Shown: in pieces, positions 56,996 to 61,877 of the stretch | Numbering within the stretch: the stretch's first letter is position 1 | How the letters are laid out: each line of letters opens with the position of its first letter | From: Sulfitobacter geojensis | GTDB lineage: Bacteria; Pseudomonadota; Alphaproteobacteria; Rhodobacterales; Rhodobacteraceae | NCBI RefSeq assembly: GCF_000622325.1 | Contig: NZ_JASE01000005.1 | Location: 62,001 to 126,000 of the forward strand | Direction: 5' to 3' | DNA length: 64,000 nucleotides | Notes under the pieces: generated by a model | Databases searched by the model: none | The model's input: only the letters and a program-made list of their open reading frames with translations | What the model was told of the DNA's origin: nothing | Made by a program: the position numbers and the translations under genes

Positions 56996-59788
56996 TTAGC
57001 TTCGCCGCCGACCGCCTGCGCTTGAGAACTTCGATACGATGCCCTCGCCACTGTGGCTTTTGACAACATCGCTGTCCTGTCCCGACATGCGGCCCTGTTC
57101 CAACACCGCAACCGGCGCCCGATCCGCGCGGGCCTGATTTCGATCAATCTCGCCTGCAATCGCATCCGTTGAAAATTGCTGCGGGTTTTGAATATTCTCT
57201 TCCGCTTCCGGTATTGGCATCACGGTTTCGCCAACCACCACCGGCAGATCGATAAAGAACTCTGTGCCCACCCCTTCCTCACTGACAAAGGAAATGCGCC
57301 CCTGATGTTGCTCGACAATCATTTTGACGATCGACAAGCCCAATCCGGTCCCCCCCTTGGACCGTGTGTCGGAACTGTCCGCTTGTGTGAATTTGTCGAA
57401 CATCGTGGGCTGGGCGTGTTTCGGAATGCCCTCACCATAATCGCGAATAGAGATGCGCCAGCGACCGGCAACTTCTTTCAACGAAACCTGAATTTCTGAT
57501 CCCGCATCAGAGAACTTGGCCGCATTCGACATCAGGTTATCGACAACCTGCGTCAGGCGCGTGGGGTCGCCATAAGTCAGCGCGGGGCCGTCATGTTCAT
57601 CTGCAAACCTGCGCACAGCCACGCCAAACTTGTCGGCAAAGAATTTGTTGGTGTCCAAAGCGGTGGTCAGCATCTTGCCGAGATCAAAGGTCTCCAGCTT
57701 GTAGTCCATTTTTCCGGCCTCGATCTTTTCAAGATCCAGAATGTCATTGATCAATGTGATCAGGCGCTCGCAGTTTGTCGCGGCCATGCTGACCAAGTTA
57801 TTCATCTTGGGCGGCATTTCACCGGTCGCCCCCGACAGGGTCAATCCGAGCGCGCCCTTGATCGAGGTAAGCGGTGTACGCAATTCGTGGCTGATCGTTG
57901 CGATAAAGGCGGTCTTTGCCTTCTCGATCTCTTTGCGCTCTGAAATGTCGCGGTAGATCGCGATCAGACGCGGTTCTTCCTGATCTGGTTGCGCGTATTC
58001 AAGACTGATTTCATACGTGATGTCGCCTTTTGCGGTCACTTCCCATGTCATCCGACGTTCCGGCCCATTCGCCAAAGCGGCGGCTTTTTTCTTCAGGGCC
58101 TCCAAATCTTCGTTGCTGATAAAGTTGGCGGCTGTCTTGCCTTTCCAACCACCACCCATACGGCCCTTGATCAGCCGGTTTTCCGCTGCGGCATTGACGA
58201 ACAGCACGTCCATCGTCCCGGGGCGCAGCACCACAACCTGATCCTGGATCAGTTCAAGCGTATTGTTAAACCGTTTCTCGGAAACGCCCGCCCGCGTCTG
58301 TGTGACATCCGACGCGACAATGGCAATTTCACCCAACGCCTTTGACGCACCCGCCACCGGAATGACGGTGCATTGCAACCACGCCGCTTTGCCATTGCTC
58401 TTCAACAACTGCAGCGCCCCTTCCCATGTGGCACCTGCCTGCATCGCCCGCATGACCTGGGACTTCAGCACGTCCTGATTGCTTTCGTCCAATATGTCCG
58501 CGAACGGGTTCTGAACCAGACTGCCGCGACTGCGGTCCAACACTGCGACAAAGTGGTCATTCACATGGGAAATCACACCGTCCTTTGTCAGCATGCAAAA
58601 GACCGTGTGGTCCTCGATGGCGTTGCGATAAAACTGCTTCGAGCGGACTTCGGAGTGCAATACATCTTTCCGGTTTTCGGCCAAACGCTTTGTCCGGCTG
58701 AGTTCAAACAGCAAGAGCAAGATCGAAAAGCCGATCAGAGCCGCCAGCCCCAGTGTCGGCCATTTATAGGCCCGATAAATACGCGCCCCTGCTTGCTTGA
58801 TGTAATTCTGGTATGGTCGCGCATGAAGCGAGATCAACAGATCATGAACCGGCAGATAATTCTGCGGGGCCTGCCAGACAATGCCACCTGCGGCGCGCGC
58901 TTGCGGACTTTGCGCATCCACGGCAAGCAACGTCCCGATCAACAGCCCAAGCGCCTGATCCGGCACGTTGGGCATTGATCCCATCACCCAGTCAGGGAAC
59001 AAGGGTGTGCTGACCCAGAACGGGAAACCGGCATGTGCCATCGGTGCAACCGGACGGAAATCATCTAGCTTGATAATGCCCTGTTTGGCGAGGTTTTCCA
59101 GCACACCGGCACGGATCACCCCGACATCAACCAAACCGTTCTGCACGGCATAAACCACTTCGCGCTGGTTCCCGCCTGAAAACAGCAAATCCGCGCCGAT
59201 GCTTTCGGGATCCAGCCGGTATTTGCGCGCTTCCTGCACCGCAAGCTTCCAACCTGTCAGCTCGTTCGGGGCCATAGCCATCACACGGCGACCCGCCAAA
59301 CCTTCAAACCCGCGCAGCAGGCTGTCATTGCGGGTAAAGACCAAGGCACCGGTCTGGTTATACGTCTTGTTTTGCCACATCTGGGCCACTGACAATATCG
59401 CCCGCGCGCCCTCTTCAACTTCGGCGGTCACAAAGGCAGCAGGGTCGCTTAAAAAGACGTCAATCGCGCCGCGGCCCAACCCCTCCAGCAGCGAGGCTTC
59501 GTTGTGGGGTTCAAGCCGGAAGCGGTAAGGCAGGTCTTGGTCCCGTGCTGTATCGTTCAACAGCGAAACCGTCGGGGCCCATGCCTCAAGCGTTCTGGTC
59601 GCCCCCTCAGAGGCGAGCACACCAAAAGTAATTTCCGTTTCCTCGTTGTGAACATCCTGCGCCGTCGCCGGTCCGAGACAGGCCAGTGTCACCGCCACCA
59701 AAAGCACCCGGAACAGGAAAAATTTGCGCAGCTGGAACAGCTTGTCCAAGGAGGAGATGAGAGCGGTCATCCCGTTCAGCTTTCGCAT
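56996..59788 (-). CDS. Sensor histidine kinase with PhnD-like periplasmic domain
   Basis: From ATG 59788 the protein has 930 residues (59770 is an alternative). A signal or anchor (about 22-44) is followed by a periplasmic binding-protein-like domain of the PhnD/SsuA type (about 50-310, ITFGVLASEGATRTLEAWAP with IDVFLSDPAAFVTAEVEEGA and VDVGVIRAGVLENLAKQGI). A second membrane helix (about 345-365), two PAS domains and HisKA with H in FIATISHELRTPLTSIKGAL follow. HATPase with DNLMSNAAKFSDAG and GGTGLGLSIVKMIVEQHQG ends the catalytic part. There is no receiver. It converges on the fliJ-like gene with a 1-bp gap. The ligand is unknown. Confidence 0.9.
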   Translation of the reverse strand: MRKLNGMTALISSLDKLFQLRKFFLFRVLLVAVTLACLGPATAQDVHNEETEITFGVLASEGATRTLEAWAPTVSLLNDTARDQDLPYRFRLEPHNEASLLEGLGRGAIDVFLSDPAAFVTAEVEEGARAILSVAQMWQNKTYNQTGALVFTRNDSLLRGFEGLAGRRVMAMAPNELTGWKLAVQEARKYRLDPESIGADLLFSGGNQREVVYAVQNGLVDVGVIRAGVLENLAKQGIIKLDDFRPVAPMAHAGFPFWVSTPLFPDWVMGSMPNVPDQALGLLIGTLLAVDAQSPQARAAGGIVWQAPQNYLPVHDLLISLHARPYQNYIKQAGARIYRAYKWPTLGLAALIGFSILLLLFELSRTKRLAENRKDVLHSEVRSKQFYRNAIEDHTVFCMLTKDGVISHVNDHFVAVLDRSRGSLVQNPFADILDESNQDVLKSQVMRAMQAGATWEGALQLLKSNGKAAWLQCTVIPVAGASKALGEIAIVASDVTQTRAGVSEKRFNNTLELIQDQVVVLRPGTMDVLFVNAAAENRLIKGRMGGGWKGKTAANFISNEDLEALKKKAAALANGPERRMTWEVTAKGDITYEISLEYAQPDQEEPRLIAIYRDISERKEIEKAKTAFIATISHELRTPLTSIKGALGLTLSGATGEMPPKMNNLVSMAATNCERLITLINDILDLEKIEAGKMDYKLETFDLGKMLTTALDTNKFFADKFGVAVRRFADEHDGPALTYGDPTRLTQVVDNLMSNAAKFSDAGSEIQVSLKEVAGRWRISIRDYGEGIPKHAQPTMFDKFTQADSSDTRSKGGTGLGLSIVKMIVEQHQGRISFVSEEGVGTEFFIDLPVVVGETVMPIPEAEENIQNPQQFSTDAIAGEIDRNQARADRAPVAVLEQGRMSGQDSDVVKSHSGEGIVSKFSSAGGRRRS

Positions 59789-60191
59789 GGTTCTGTGTTG
59801 GCGCAGGTTCCATAACAACCACCCAACCGGATGTGCATCTGACACAACCGCACCTGCATCCTGTGCATTTGCCGTTTTTGATCTGTGCAAAATCCTGAAT
59901 ACATGAAACGCCAACAGCCACTTGGGCTGCGCCACCTATTGTCCTTTGTGGGGGATCACCCCGCAAGGAATCTGGGTCGCCTTCTGGCAAAGGCCCCTAA
60001 GGAAAGCGCAAAATCATCCGCTCTTGGGGCATGGTAACAGGTGCCAGCTAAATGTGGCGAAACTAGGGCTTTGGCGACAAAATTCCGTTTTTTGGCGAAA
60101 TGCGCGCGAAATGGAAACAGTCAAACGTGCCACATCGATGAGGCCTGCGGCCCTCACAGGCCAGTCGTTTTGCATTAAGGGGAAGGGTCAT

Positions 60192-60230
60192 CGGCCAGCA
60201 AGCTCGGGAGGAGGATGAGCGTGCTGGCCG
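60192..60230 (-). ncRNA. CcsR/cuckoo-type hairpin 3
   Basis: CGGCCAGCA and TGCTGGCCG form a perfect 9-bp stem with an inner GCTC/GAGC stem. On the minus strand the apical loop reads ATCCTCCTCCC. This is the conserved CCUCCUCCC loop of CcsR RNAs. It is the last of three tandem hairpins after the DUF1127 genes. Confidence 0.72.
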
Positions 60231-60235
60231 AGAAA

Positions 60236-60263
60236 TAACGGGTTTCGGGAGGAAAGACCGTTA
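60236..60263 (-). ncRNA. CcsR/cuckoo-type hairpin 2
   Basis: TAACG pairs with CGTTA, extended by GGTTT with AGACC. The minus-strand loop carries TCCTCCCG. It lies 5 bp from hairpin 3 and 5 bp from hairpin 1. Confidence 0.65.
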
Positions 60264-60268
60264 AGGGC

Positions 60269-60307
60269 GGTTTCAGATTGACTCTGGGAGGAGCGAGGTC
60301 CGAAACC
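60269..60307 (-). ncRNA. CcsR/cuckoo-type hairpin 1
   Basis: GGTTTC and GAAACC form the outer stem, with GAC/GTC or CTC/GAG pairing inside. The minus-strand loop carries GCTCCTCCCA. It is the hairpin nearest to the DUF1127 genes, about 54 bp after the stop at 60361. Confidence 0.68.
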
Positions 60308-60316
60308 TGACAACGT

Positions 60317-60332
60317 CGCCTTTTACAAGGCG
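60317..60332 (-). ncRNA. Short hairpin between DUF1127 gene and sRNA cluster
   Basis: CGCCTT-TTAC-AAGGCG is a perfect 6-bp stem 29 bp after the DUF1127 stop. It has no CCUCC loop. It may be a processing signal that separates mRNA from the sRNAs. Confidence 0.45.
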
Positions 60333-60360
60333 GGCGGTTGATGTCGTAAATTCTATGCGT

Positions 60361-60627
60361 TCAAAGGCCGTCATACTTGTAGGTAATCAGGTACTCGGCG
60401 TGGCTTTTGACCTGGCTGCGGTCGATCCCGACCTGAGCCAGCTGGGCATCGCTCATCGAGTTCAACACAGACTGCATCCGGTTGATCTGGATCTTGGTAA
60501 GCCCCTTTGAAAGGCCCTTGCCCAATGTGGTCAACAGCTGCTTCGGAGCAGCTTGAATCGCCGCGAAGGAAAGTTTGGAGGCAGGTGCAAAGATCGGTGC
60601 CTGCATTGTGTTTCCAGTCGGTTTCAT
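60361..60627 (-). CDS. DUF1127 family small protein, second copy
   Basis: The 88-residue protein ends in a DUF1127-like segment (RMQSVLNSMSDAQLAQVGID, then a positively charged tail). The N-terminal half is a linker of about 40 residues. It overlaps the upstream DUF1127 gene by 4 bp. In Rhodobacter sphaeroides a DUF1127 protein encoded before the CcsR RNAs binds RNA and helps their maturation; the same arrangement here supports that role. Confidence 0.8.
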   Translation of the reverse strand: MKPTGNTMQAPIFAPASKLSFAAIQAAPKQLLTTLGKGLSKGLTKIQINRMQSVLNSMSDAQLAQVGIDRSQVKSHAEYLITYKYDGL

Positions 60628-60863
60628 TCGTTTTCTCCTATCAGAAGTTCCTGTTTCGCAATCTTGCGGATGTTTGCGCGGGCGATCCCGAGATCTTTCA
60701 GATCCCGATCCGACAAGGCGACCAACTCGGAAAGAGTGGCGCGATATCGGGCGCGGCGCAGTCTGGCCTGATGCACAGCTTCGCGTGCCTGAAAATAGTG
60801 CTCACGGGCGCTATCCAGAAAGCTGGCCAGCTTAATATTTGTGCGTGAAAGTGTCATTGCCAT
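60624..60863 (-). CDS. DUF1127 family small protein, first copy
   Basis: The 79-residue basic protein has the classic DUF1127 end: RARYRATLSELVALSDRDLK with DLGIARANIRKIAKQ. An AAAGGAG site precedes the ATG. It is the first gene of a transcript that continues through the second copy and probably into the sRNA hairpins. The upstream region shares a repeat with the divergent LysR gene. Confidence 0.88.
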   Translation of the reverse strand: MAMTLSRTNIKLASFLDSAREHYFQAREAVHQARLRRARYRATLSELVALSDRDLKDLGIARANIRKIAKQELLIGENE

Positions 60864-60883
60864 CTGCGGGCTCCTTTCGACAT

Positions 60884-60915
60884 TGCTGCACTGCAGTATC
60901 TATGCTGCAATGCAG
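60884..60915. promoter_or_regulatory. Direct repeat between DUF1127 and lysR genes
   Basis: TGCTGCACTGCAG (60884-60896) and TGCTGCAATGCAG (60903-60915) differ at one base and are 19 bp apart. The repeated TGCTGCA/TGCAG words form overlapping inverted repeats. They lie in the 132-bp divergent region, where a LysR protein would be expected to bind. Confidence 0.4.
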
Positions 60916-60995
60916 AGATAGGACGTACAGGCCACTTATCCAACCCGCTGATTGCGCATAGGTGCCTTGCCATTTTGGAAAGGGTGTTTTGAGAA

Positions 60996-61877
60996 ATGGA
61001 CGTTTCATCGCAAATGCTTGCTTTTGTGAAAGTGGTTGAGATGGGCAGCATCTCGGCCGCCTCACGATCAAGCGGACAGACCCCGTCTGCCGTCAGCAAA
61101 CAAATTGGACACCTTGAGGACCATGTCGGCCACCGGTTGTTGCACCGCAAACGCGCAGGCGTCACCCTGACCGAAGAAGGTGCAGCCTATTACGAAAAAT
61201 GCAGGGCCGTCGCCGACAAATATCTGGAAGCCGAAGCGCATATCACCAATGCCAGCGGCCAACCCAAAGGCAACCTGCGGATCGCTTCAAGTGTCGCCTT
61301 TGGCAAATCCAATCTCATTTCGGTGCTGCCCGAATTTCTTGATCTCTACCCAGATATTTCTGTTTCGCTTGAATTGACGGACCGGCCGATTGATCTGGAT
61401 GAAGACAGTTTTGACGTGGCCCTGAATTTTGCCGAGCAAAACAGAAAACAGAACCTAATCACCAAAAAAGTCATGACCAACGAACGCATCCTGTGCGCCG
61501 CGCCCAAGTTTCTTGAACGTCACGGCACCCCGGCGACCTTTAGCGATCTCGCGCGGTTCAATTGCCTGCGCACATCGAATGCGGTTGGCAGAAACGCGTG
61601 GCAGGCCGAGCTGGACGGCAAAACATATACTGTCGATGCGATGGGGAATTTCGAAGGGAACAGCGCCCATGCCGTCTATTTGGCAACCCTCGCTGGACTG
61701 GGGATTGCGCGGCTGTCGACCTATCTGGTGAGCCGGAAAATCGCCGAAGGAAAACTGATCCGGTTGTTCCCCGAGTACGCGCAGAAGCATGCTGACGTCG
61801 CGGTATTGTTCACCGACAAACGAAATCTCGCGCCAAAGATTCGGGTCTTTGTCGACTTTATCTCAAACCGATTTTGA
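60996..61877 (+). CDS. LysR family transcriptional regulator
   Basis: The 293-residue protein has the LysR helix-turn-helix (FVKVVEMGSISAASRSSGQT, then PSAVSKQIGHLEDHVGHRLL) and an effector domain starting GNLRIASSVAFGKSNLISVL. Its length is standard. It is divergent from the DUF1127 pair. The effector domain resembles the CrgA/AaeR-like branch often annotated as general LysR regulators. No metabolic gene is adjacent to suggest a ligand, and the small-protein/sRNA operon might be its target (inference). Confidence 0.93.
   Translation: MDVSSQMLAFVKVVEMGSISAASRSSGQTPSAVSKQIGHLEDHVGHRLLHRKRAGVTLTEEGAAYYEKCRAVADKYLEAEAHITNASGQPKGNLRIASSVAFGKSNLISVLPEFLDLYPDISVSLELTDRPIDLDEDSFDVALNFAEQNRKQNLITKKVMTNERILCAAPKFLERHGTPATFSDLARFNCLRTSNAVGRNAWQAELDGKTYTVDAMGNFEGNSAHAVYLATLAGLGIARLSTYLVSRKIAEGKLIRLFPEYAQKHADVAVLFTDKRNLAPKIRVFVDFISNRF

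Follow-up and report, generated by a model that had tools for sequence, protein, structure and literature searches.

A cuckoo/CcsR-type hairpin operon of Sulfitobacter geojensis with a double PhaR-type operator and a predicted output on carbon uptake

Within a 64,000-nucleotide window of the Sulfitobacter geojensis genome (assembly GCF_000622325.1, contig NZ_JASE01000005.1, positions 62,001 to 126,000 of the forward strand), we analysed a minus-strand locus at window positions 60142-60863. In order of transcription it carries a small gene for a DUF1127 protein (DUFa), a second small gene (DUFb) whose open reading frame (ORF) shares 4 bases with that of DUFa, a separator hairpin of 6 bp, and a series of three hairpins that carry TCCTCCC in the loop (Table 1). 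A preliminary description, made from the letters alone, had reported three adjacent hairpins downstream of, and co-directional with, two overlapping genes; direct reading of the sequence and folding agree, the separator hairpin is present, and the divergent LysR gene is real by Pfam. Our reading, to which we assign a probability of about one half, is that this is a cuckoo/CcsR-type operon under PhaR, the repressor of polyhydroxybutyrate (PHB) storage, and that its RNAs silence carbon-uptake mRNAs. The cuckoo/CcsR-type kind is already known; what is new is the likely control, through a PhaR-type double operator, and the likely output.

Table 1. Features of the locus and its flanks in window coordinates.
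Feature	Positions	Strand	Description and basis
Divergent LysR-type regulator	60996..61877	+	293 aa; Pfam; copies 46-74% identical diverge at some related loci
Candidate LysR operator GCAAGGCACCTATGC	60956..60970		Alignment, inference; GCATAGCCCCTATGC or GCATAGCGCCTATGC in several relatives
Inferred promoter TTGGAT-17-TATCTC	60915..60943	-	Assigned by eye
First PhaR-type box CTGCATTGCAG	60905..60915	-	Promoter-proximal, at inferred transcription start; pair search and conservation
Second PhaR-type box CTGCAGTGCAG	60886..60896	-	Ends 22 bases before DUFa ATG
DUFa	60624..60863	-	ORF of 79 codons, 79 aa; DUF1127 protein; 13.9% arginine
DUFb	60361..60627	-	ORF of 88 codons, 88 aa; diverged DUF1127 relative; 2.3% arginine
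Separator hairpin, 6 bp, CGCCTT-TTAC-AAGGCG	60317..60332	-	Sequence and fold
Hairpin A, loop GCTCCTCCC	60269..60307	-	Fold; covariation
Hairpin B, loop TTCCTCCC	60236..60263	-	Fold; covariation (2 of 6 pairs changed on both sides)
Hairpin C, loop ATCCTCCTCCC	60191..60231	-	Last motif hairpin; fold; covariation
Trailing hairpin GGCCTG/CAGGCC	60142..60162	-	No motif, no T run; sequence and fold

Both small genes had been called DUF1127 genes, a label that holds for the first only. DUFa, which lies upstream of the motif hairpins in the same direction of transcription, scores 36.4 bits against PF06568 (DUF1127; cut-off 23.3), whereas DUFb falls below that gathering score (12.2 bits, E 0.16). Profiles built from 33 DUFa and 38 DUFb relatives align over 35 columns (hhalign probability 95%, E 3e-8), and by sequence comparison DUFb is a diverged relative rather than a Pfam-level member of the family. 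Mean arginine content is 14.1% among DUFa relatives and 6.7% among DUFb relatives; about 14% has been noted for DUF1127 proteins, which are also reported to bind the kinase PhoR (PMC12501420). By analogy with that binding, the arginine-poor DUFb of this genome may be a partner of DUFa or a protein binder.

On the minus strand, TCCTCCC lies at 60292-60286 in a loop that reads CTCCTCCC, at 60253-60247 in the second loop, and at 60212-60206 in a loop that reads CCTCCTCCC. All three hairpins thus carry, on the strand of the DUF1127 gene, the UCCUCCC core of loops of the CCUCCUCCC type, and one carries the full nonamer. Over the whole window TCCTCCC is no more frequent than expected (4 copies found, 6.3 expected); three of the four copies cluster in an 87-base stretch of a single strand, and these are the three that occupy the hairpin loops. 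The 231 nucleotides from 60130 to 60360 fold at -82.9 kcal/mol, whereas 200 shuffles average -59.2 and include none as stable (z -5.2).

Covariation was scored over full loci in 10 of the 11 loci with three clustered hairpins (L050 was left out), and over the last hairpin in 23 of 30 loci; the last hairpins left out (L025, L029, L034, L041, L049, L059 and L061) belong to single-hairpin loci or are near-duplicates or an outlier. The ten orthologous three-hairpin loci share a 30-pair consensus in which 95.3% of cells are paired (24-40% when slid), 12 of the 30 pairs have changed on both sides (7.5 in shuffles), and the covariation score is 0.353, compared with 0.158 in shuffles and with 0 of 500 as high. 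Among the 23 last hairpins 96.7% of cells are paired, 48 cells have changed on both sides (17 in shuffles), and the loop is nearly invariant. The stems change during evolution and the loop hardly does.

This contrast between covarying stems and a near-invariant loop, together with the presence of three hairpin copies, speaks against the view that the hairpins are only mRNA 3' ends, acting as stabilisers or terminators with no action in trans. That view draws on the T-rich stretch that follows the last motif hairpin in some relatives (e.g. L044 and L050); the non-random set of genes with complementary ribosome sites (see below) and the reported action in trans of the same motif in NfeR1 (PMC10746234) also oppose it, and we consider it very improbable. 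The window copy has no T run after its last motif hairpin and has the extra hairpin downstream instead. A promoter and terminator scan of 60000-61100 listed nothing on the minus strand.

The preliminary description had assigned the locus to the CcsR/cuckoo kind and proposed a covariance-model search as the check. No model reaches its gathering score there: CcsR1 (RF02791) gives 14.3 bits (gathering 65.3), and ar14 (RF02344), the best Rfam match, gives 33.1 bits (E 3.5e-4 for 1 kb; gathering 58.8); across the window, gathering-score matches consist of a tRNA only. The locus has the three-hairpin architecture of ar14 although its score lies below gathering. When the whole genome was searched at E up to 1, ar14 matched seven places, with the genome's canonical cuckoo locus first and the window locus second (E 3.3e-4), and had matches in 3 of 14 control genomes. 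The corresponding CcsR1 search returned two other places, the window locus being absent, and gave matches in 8 control genomes. Taken formally, this refutes the assignment. The CcsR1 threshold is too strict a test, however, because loci with a single DUF1127 gene followed by motif hairpins miss it as well. The related-locus search yielded four of these (L063-L066, from two Roseovarius, one Rhodobacteraceae metagenome-assembled genome (MAG) and one Rubellimicrobium MAG), each with 4 to 9 motif hairpins; the best CcsR1 score among the four is 47.7 bits. The longest array seen, nine successive TCCTCCC hairpins after one DUF1127 gene, belongs to the uncultured Rubellimicrobium (L065 2332-2667).

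Anatomy, covariation and context support placing the window locus in the same kind as cuckoo, CcsR and ar14, and we make no claim of membership in CcsR1. In Rhodobacter sphaeroides, CcsR1-4 (CIN1-type cuckoo, RF02791) are encoded behind the DUF1127 gene ccaF1 and are reported to be matured by RNase E with CcaF1 (PMC10253847, PMC8307010, PMC8625941). Common to the two systems is a DUF1127 gene with hairpins downstream in the same direction whose loops are of the CCUCCUCCC type. They differ in the second, diverged DUF1127 gene and the divergent LysR gene of the window locus, in hairpin number (three here, four in R. sphaeroides), and in control, the double PhaR-type operator here contrasting with the reported RpoHI/HII promoter of ccaF1. 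Three hairpins had been listed as a departure from the known kind; this does not hold, as ar14 RNAs are described with three, each bearing the anti-Shine-Dalgarno motif through which mRNAs are silenced (PMC10746234). NfeR1, the ar14 RNA of Sinorhizobium, silences mostly transporter mRNAs through this motif. It differs from the window locus as a trans-acting small RNA (sRNA) transcribed from a sigma-70 promoter of its own that LsrB and NtrC control, and the available text of that report mentions no DUF1127 gene (PMC10746234). The open-licence literature, whose coverage is incomplete, yielded no link between PhaR and DUF1127 or CcsR; tandem DUF1127 cuckoo loci may already be described.

Both boxes before DUFa match CTGCNNNGCAG, the PhaR binding sequence reported for R. 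sphaeroides (PMC12542648). They are 8 bases apart, the whole element running from 60915 to 60886. A TATCT-like block stands immediately 5' of the first box in most aligned rows, with TTGGAT-17 ahead of it in the window, and TA(C/T) and CT beside the first box keep their position in relatives. Lone CTGCNNNGCAG boxes are frequent (the window has 3, with 1.5 expected), and the tandem rather than the lone box is therefore the informative signal. Tandems of CTGCNNNGCAG 4-30 bases apart occur at two places in the 4.23 Mb genome, the DUFa promoter and the phaP promoter, and the reversed-pattern control found 0 places genome-wide. Phasin genes are classic PhaR targets; the phaP tandem has a spacing of 16 bases rather than 8. 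PhaR itself is encoded in the genome (PF07879, E 4.9e-27; PF05233 also), phaR, phaP (Phasin_2) and phaC are clustered, and phaR has one box that ends 22 bases before its presumed GTG start. A box at the inferred start site fits a repressor. With a published PhaR site at the DUFa promoter, the window locus looks PhaR-controlled, and PhaR would be expected to bind there.

The arrangement is conserved among relatives. Of 62 genomes of the genus, 25 contain a DUFb match, and among 149 genomes drawn from the family the number is 10, the own genome being counted in both. The DUFb relatives lie at 38 loci; in this set L027, L036 and L037 overlap on a single contig, and some genomes contribute more than one locus. 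DUFb has a DUFa-like gene before it in 34 of the 38, and TCCTCCC is present within 1.1 kb downstream at least twice in 28, once in 2 and not at all in 8. A double box of the Sinorhizobium meliloti type occurs within 170 bases before the first gene in 31 of the 38, mostly 20-27 bases from the ATG; single-base shuffles predict 0.01 such loci.

The divergent LysR regulator, whose protein gave general LysR matches against solved structures, could instead be the main switch, acting as VtlR/LsrB do in Rhizobiales, with the GCATAG...CTATGC palindrome or else the double boxes as the sequence that it reads. VtlR is reported to activate AbcR2 and three DUF1127 genes (PMC12595884), and LsrB to activate NfeR1 (PMC10746234). 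The palindrome is conserved in the intergenic region at many loci, and a LysR gene 46-100% identical to that of the window diverges at 16 of the 31 double-box loci; excluding the window itself (100%), these are 15 of 30 with 46-74% identity. The other 15 of the 31 lack such a LysR in the stretch examined, and when 9 of the genomes with these loci were searched (E up to 1e-80), 7 had no copy and 2 had only a 54% copy elsewhere. The palindrome is kept at LysR-less loci (L038, L039, L045 and L047), and VtlR/LsrB is reported to be unique to Rhizobiales (PMC11975290). Control chiefly by the LysR protein thus appears unlikely. The double inverted repeat before DUFa was also considered as its operator and dropped as the principal interpretation, since the repeat persists where the LysR gene is missing. 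At eight loci (L026, L030, L034, L035, L056, L058, L060 and L062) a block TTGTGAGCGCTACCAA, which we take to resemble a LacI-family operator, stands upstream of the double box; the LysR proteins of these loci are about 53-55% identical to that of the window.

The same genome has a canonical cuckoo locus (G000:C5:2735520-2736300; L015 721-1500) with a 43-base double motif upstream, followed by a two-hairpin unit ending in TTTTTTT, a gene for a 73-aa DUF1127 protein, three more motif hairpins and a T run. A wider box search of the 62 genus genomes returned 134 rows, compared with 10 in the reversed control. We typed 84 of the 134; near-palindromic places were taken in one orientation only, and rows that on inspection by eye seemed to be chance hits or fitted no class were set aside. 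The resulting three types are sequence types, and for the phaP type a position before phaP was checked at the place in the window genome only. The short type adjoins a DUFb match at 24 of 28 typed places, the other four being in G149, G177, G193 and G198. The fixed-length type, as a rule CTGCATRGCAGCATTG...TTGTGCANNNGCAGC, is 43 bases long at all but one of its 45 typed places and occurs in 43 genomes. Motif hairpins lay within 900 bases at all nine fixed-type places inspected (in seven loci, e.g. L084, L090, L092, L094, L095, L098 and L106, and in L015). They begin 68-71 bases downstream at six (two hairpins in five, four in one) and about 345-350 bases downstream at three.

The S. meliloti PhaR core, YGCRNYGCR (PMC12542648, Table 3), distinguishes these promoters. 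It is found in both boxes of 10 of 10 phaP-type places, in box 1 of 28 of 28 short-type places and both boxes of 18, and in neither box of the canonical fixed-type places (0 of 45). The two promoter types are told apart by this core, because box 1 of the fixed type fits the looser CTGCNNNGCAG. The fixed motif resembles, on the opposite strand, the Brucella VtlR box CAATGCAGCCATGCA (PMC12595884), with one mismatch by eye in the TGCATGG form. The canonical loci therefore look, from their motif, as though they are controlled by a factor other than PhaR, and the idea of a PhaR operator common to all cuckoo loci was dropped.

The canonical locus also bears on whether the window locus is an ordinary CcsR-type stress operon, in which RpoHI/RpoHII would drive transcription under oxidative or heat stress, DUFa would mature the hairpins, and the boxes would be incidental or secondary. 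The operon anatomy agrees with this, and the ccaF1-CcsR1-4 operon of R. sphaeroides is reported to combine an RpoHI/RpoHII promoter with the same architecture (PMC10253847, PMC8307010). Yet the genome already has a canonical locus with a different upstream motif, no block ahead of DUFa is better conserved than the double box, and no RpoH promoter has been demonstrated there, no model search for one having been made. We judge a plain stress operon to be unlikely, and no more so than control by LysR.

Candidate targets were sought as ribosome sites complementary to the loops. The genome has 68 places where ATG follows GGGAGGA at a distance of 2-9 bases, compared with 3 for the reversed pattern; three of the 68 correspond to the opposite strand of the hairpins themselves. 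Accepted ORFs of at least 100 codons on all replicons, after genes at stretch ends (e.g. L128 and L135) and some others were dropped, number 39. By Pfam, 22 of these 39 genes encode solute-binding proteins: 10 DctP, 3 Peripla_BP_6, 3 NMT1-type, 2 Peripla_BP_4, 2 SBP_bac_1, 1 TctC and 1 phosphonate-binding. On the chromosome alone the proportion is 14 of 27. A control set of genes with AGGAG sites lacking GGGAGG, drawn from 400 kb of the chromosome, contained 1 solute-binding gene in 24, and one further gene with a periplasmic-binding-like domain that is a LacI-type regulator. Relative to 1/24, Fisher p is 2.6e-5 for 22/39 and 1.7e-4 for 14/27. Among 357 background ORFs, phmmer found 5 relatives of the 39 genes, 2 of them solute-binding; one background figure, 12/357, was assumed and is generous compared with the 2/357 that phmmer saw. 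At least 3 SBP_bac_5 proteins appeared among 110 random ORFs, within the best 25 of 184 family matches.

Rhodobacterales rely on tripartite ATP-independent periplasmic (TRAP) and ATP-binding cassette (ABC) transporters for uptake. The other GGGAGGA genes include acyl-CoA dehydrogenases, AMP-binding enzymes, an enoyl-CoA hydratase, a rhamnose isomerase and an E1 dehydrogenase. The last is a PdhA-like E1 component dehydrogenase gene (L153 739-1749); the pyruvate dehydrogenase complex is reportedly affected by CcsR RNAs in R. sphaeroides (PMC8307010). We predict from their complementarity that the GGGAGGA genes are targets common to both loci of the genome.

The mechanism we propose for PhaR control is as follows. 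PhaR on the two CTGCNNNGCAG boxes at the transcription start would block the operon, and forming PHB granules would pull it off the DNA, as for phasin genes elsewhere. Release would yield one transcript containing DUFa, DUFb and the three hairpins, and DUFa, like CcaF1, would aid RNase E in freeing the hairpins. Through their UCCUCCC core, the loops would then base-pair with ribosome sites of the GGGAGGA type and thereby prevent TRAP and ABC solute-binding proteins, as well as some enzymes of carbon degradation, from being translated, such that full carbon stores would mean less carbon uptake. Each half has a reported precedent: in S. meliloti PhaR represses MmgR, an sRNA of PHB control (PMC12542648, PMC8401924), and NfeR1 silences transporter mRNAs via the same motif (PMC10746234). 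MmgR (ar8), repressed by PhaR/AniA, is likewise a PhaR-tied sRNA of PHB storage; it differs as a single Hfq-dependent 77-nt RNA that acts on phasins, and the available accounts describe no DUF1127 operon or hairpin array for it.

More tentatively, and at somewhat worse than even odds, the locus may serve as a "stores full" switch in many species of the genus and some other genera of the family. Granule growth would free anti-Shine-Dalgarno RNAs via PhaR and shut down translation of TRAP and ABC solute-binding mRNAs, whose GGGAGGA sites would be matched to the loops and not to 16S rRNA alone. The canonical loci, with their 43-base motif and another factor, would be a second input to this one output.

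Several results weigh against PhaR control and the proposed silencing. The automatic scan found no double box at 7 of the 38 loci, although the wider search lists one near L050 and L059, and L028, L031, L048 and L055 have a double box with no TCCTCCC downstream. Among short-type places, 10 of 28 second boxes miss YGCRNYGCR; box 1 of the fixed type, for which the looser sequence is part of the search pattern, misses the core by a single base. Other proteins may read such boxes, the VtlR box being similar in make-up. Not every covariation measure stands out from shuffles: further pair types lie within the shuffle level in the ten three-hairpin loci (one of five measures), and in the 23 last hairpins (two of five) both these and the number of pairs with two-sided change do so (6, shuffles 5.2; 173 of 500 as high). 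The GGGAGGA genes would also match any other RNA with this loop, those of the canonical locus among them, and solute-binding genes might prefer GGGAGGA for other reasons. Finally, phaP has no GGGAGG site, which leaves it unsupported as a hairpin target.

If true, PhaR control would join carbon-storage sensing to the widespread anti-Shine-Dalgarno RNA arrays of Alphaproteobacteria, so far studied apart, and would give these arrays a testable reason, the matching of uptake to stored carbon. It would also supply a predicted target list and two promoter motifs that distinguish the two kinds of locus from each other; a global switch on TRAP and ABC uptake in Rhodobacterales would be of general interest.

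Further observations concern the partner genes, phaR and the surroundings. At three of the four loci with a double box and no TCCTCCC (L028, L031, L048 and L055) no DUFa partner was recognised either; in this group of four, the RNAs and control of the PhaR type appear separable. The phaR mRNA has TCTGGGAG before its GTG, where by eye an 8-base pairing with the loop region of hairpin A is possible. The minus-strand ORF at 56996-59935 of the window encodes a 979-aa sensor histidine kinase in which Pfam finds PAS domains and, at the N-terminus, a solute-binding domain of the phosphonate type. In Roseovarius gahaiensis (L063 5079-5263, minus strand), a cobalamin riboswitch (RF00174, 114.7 bits) lies about 2 kb from the cuckoo/DUF1127 locus.

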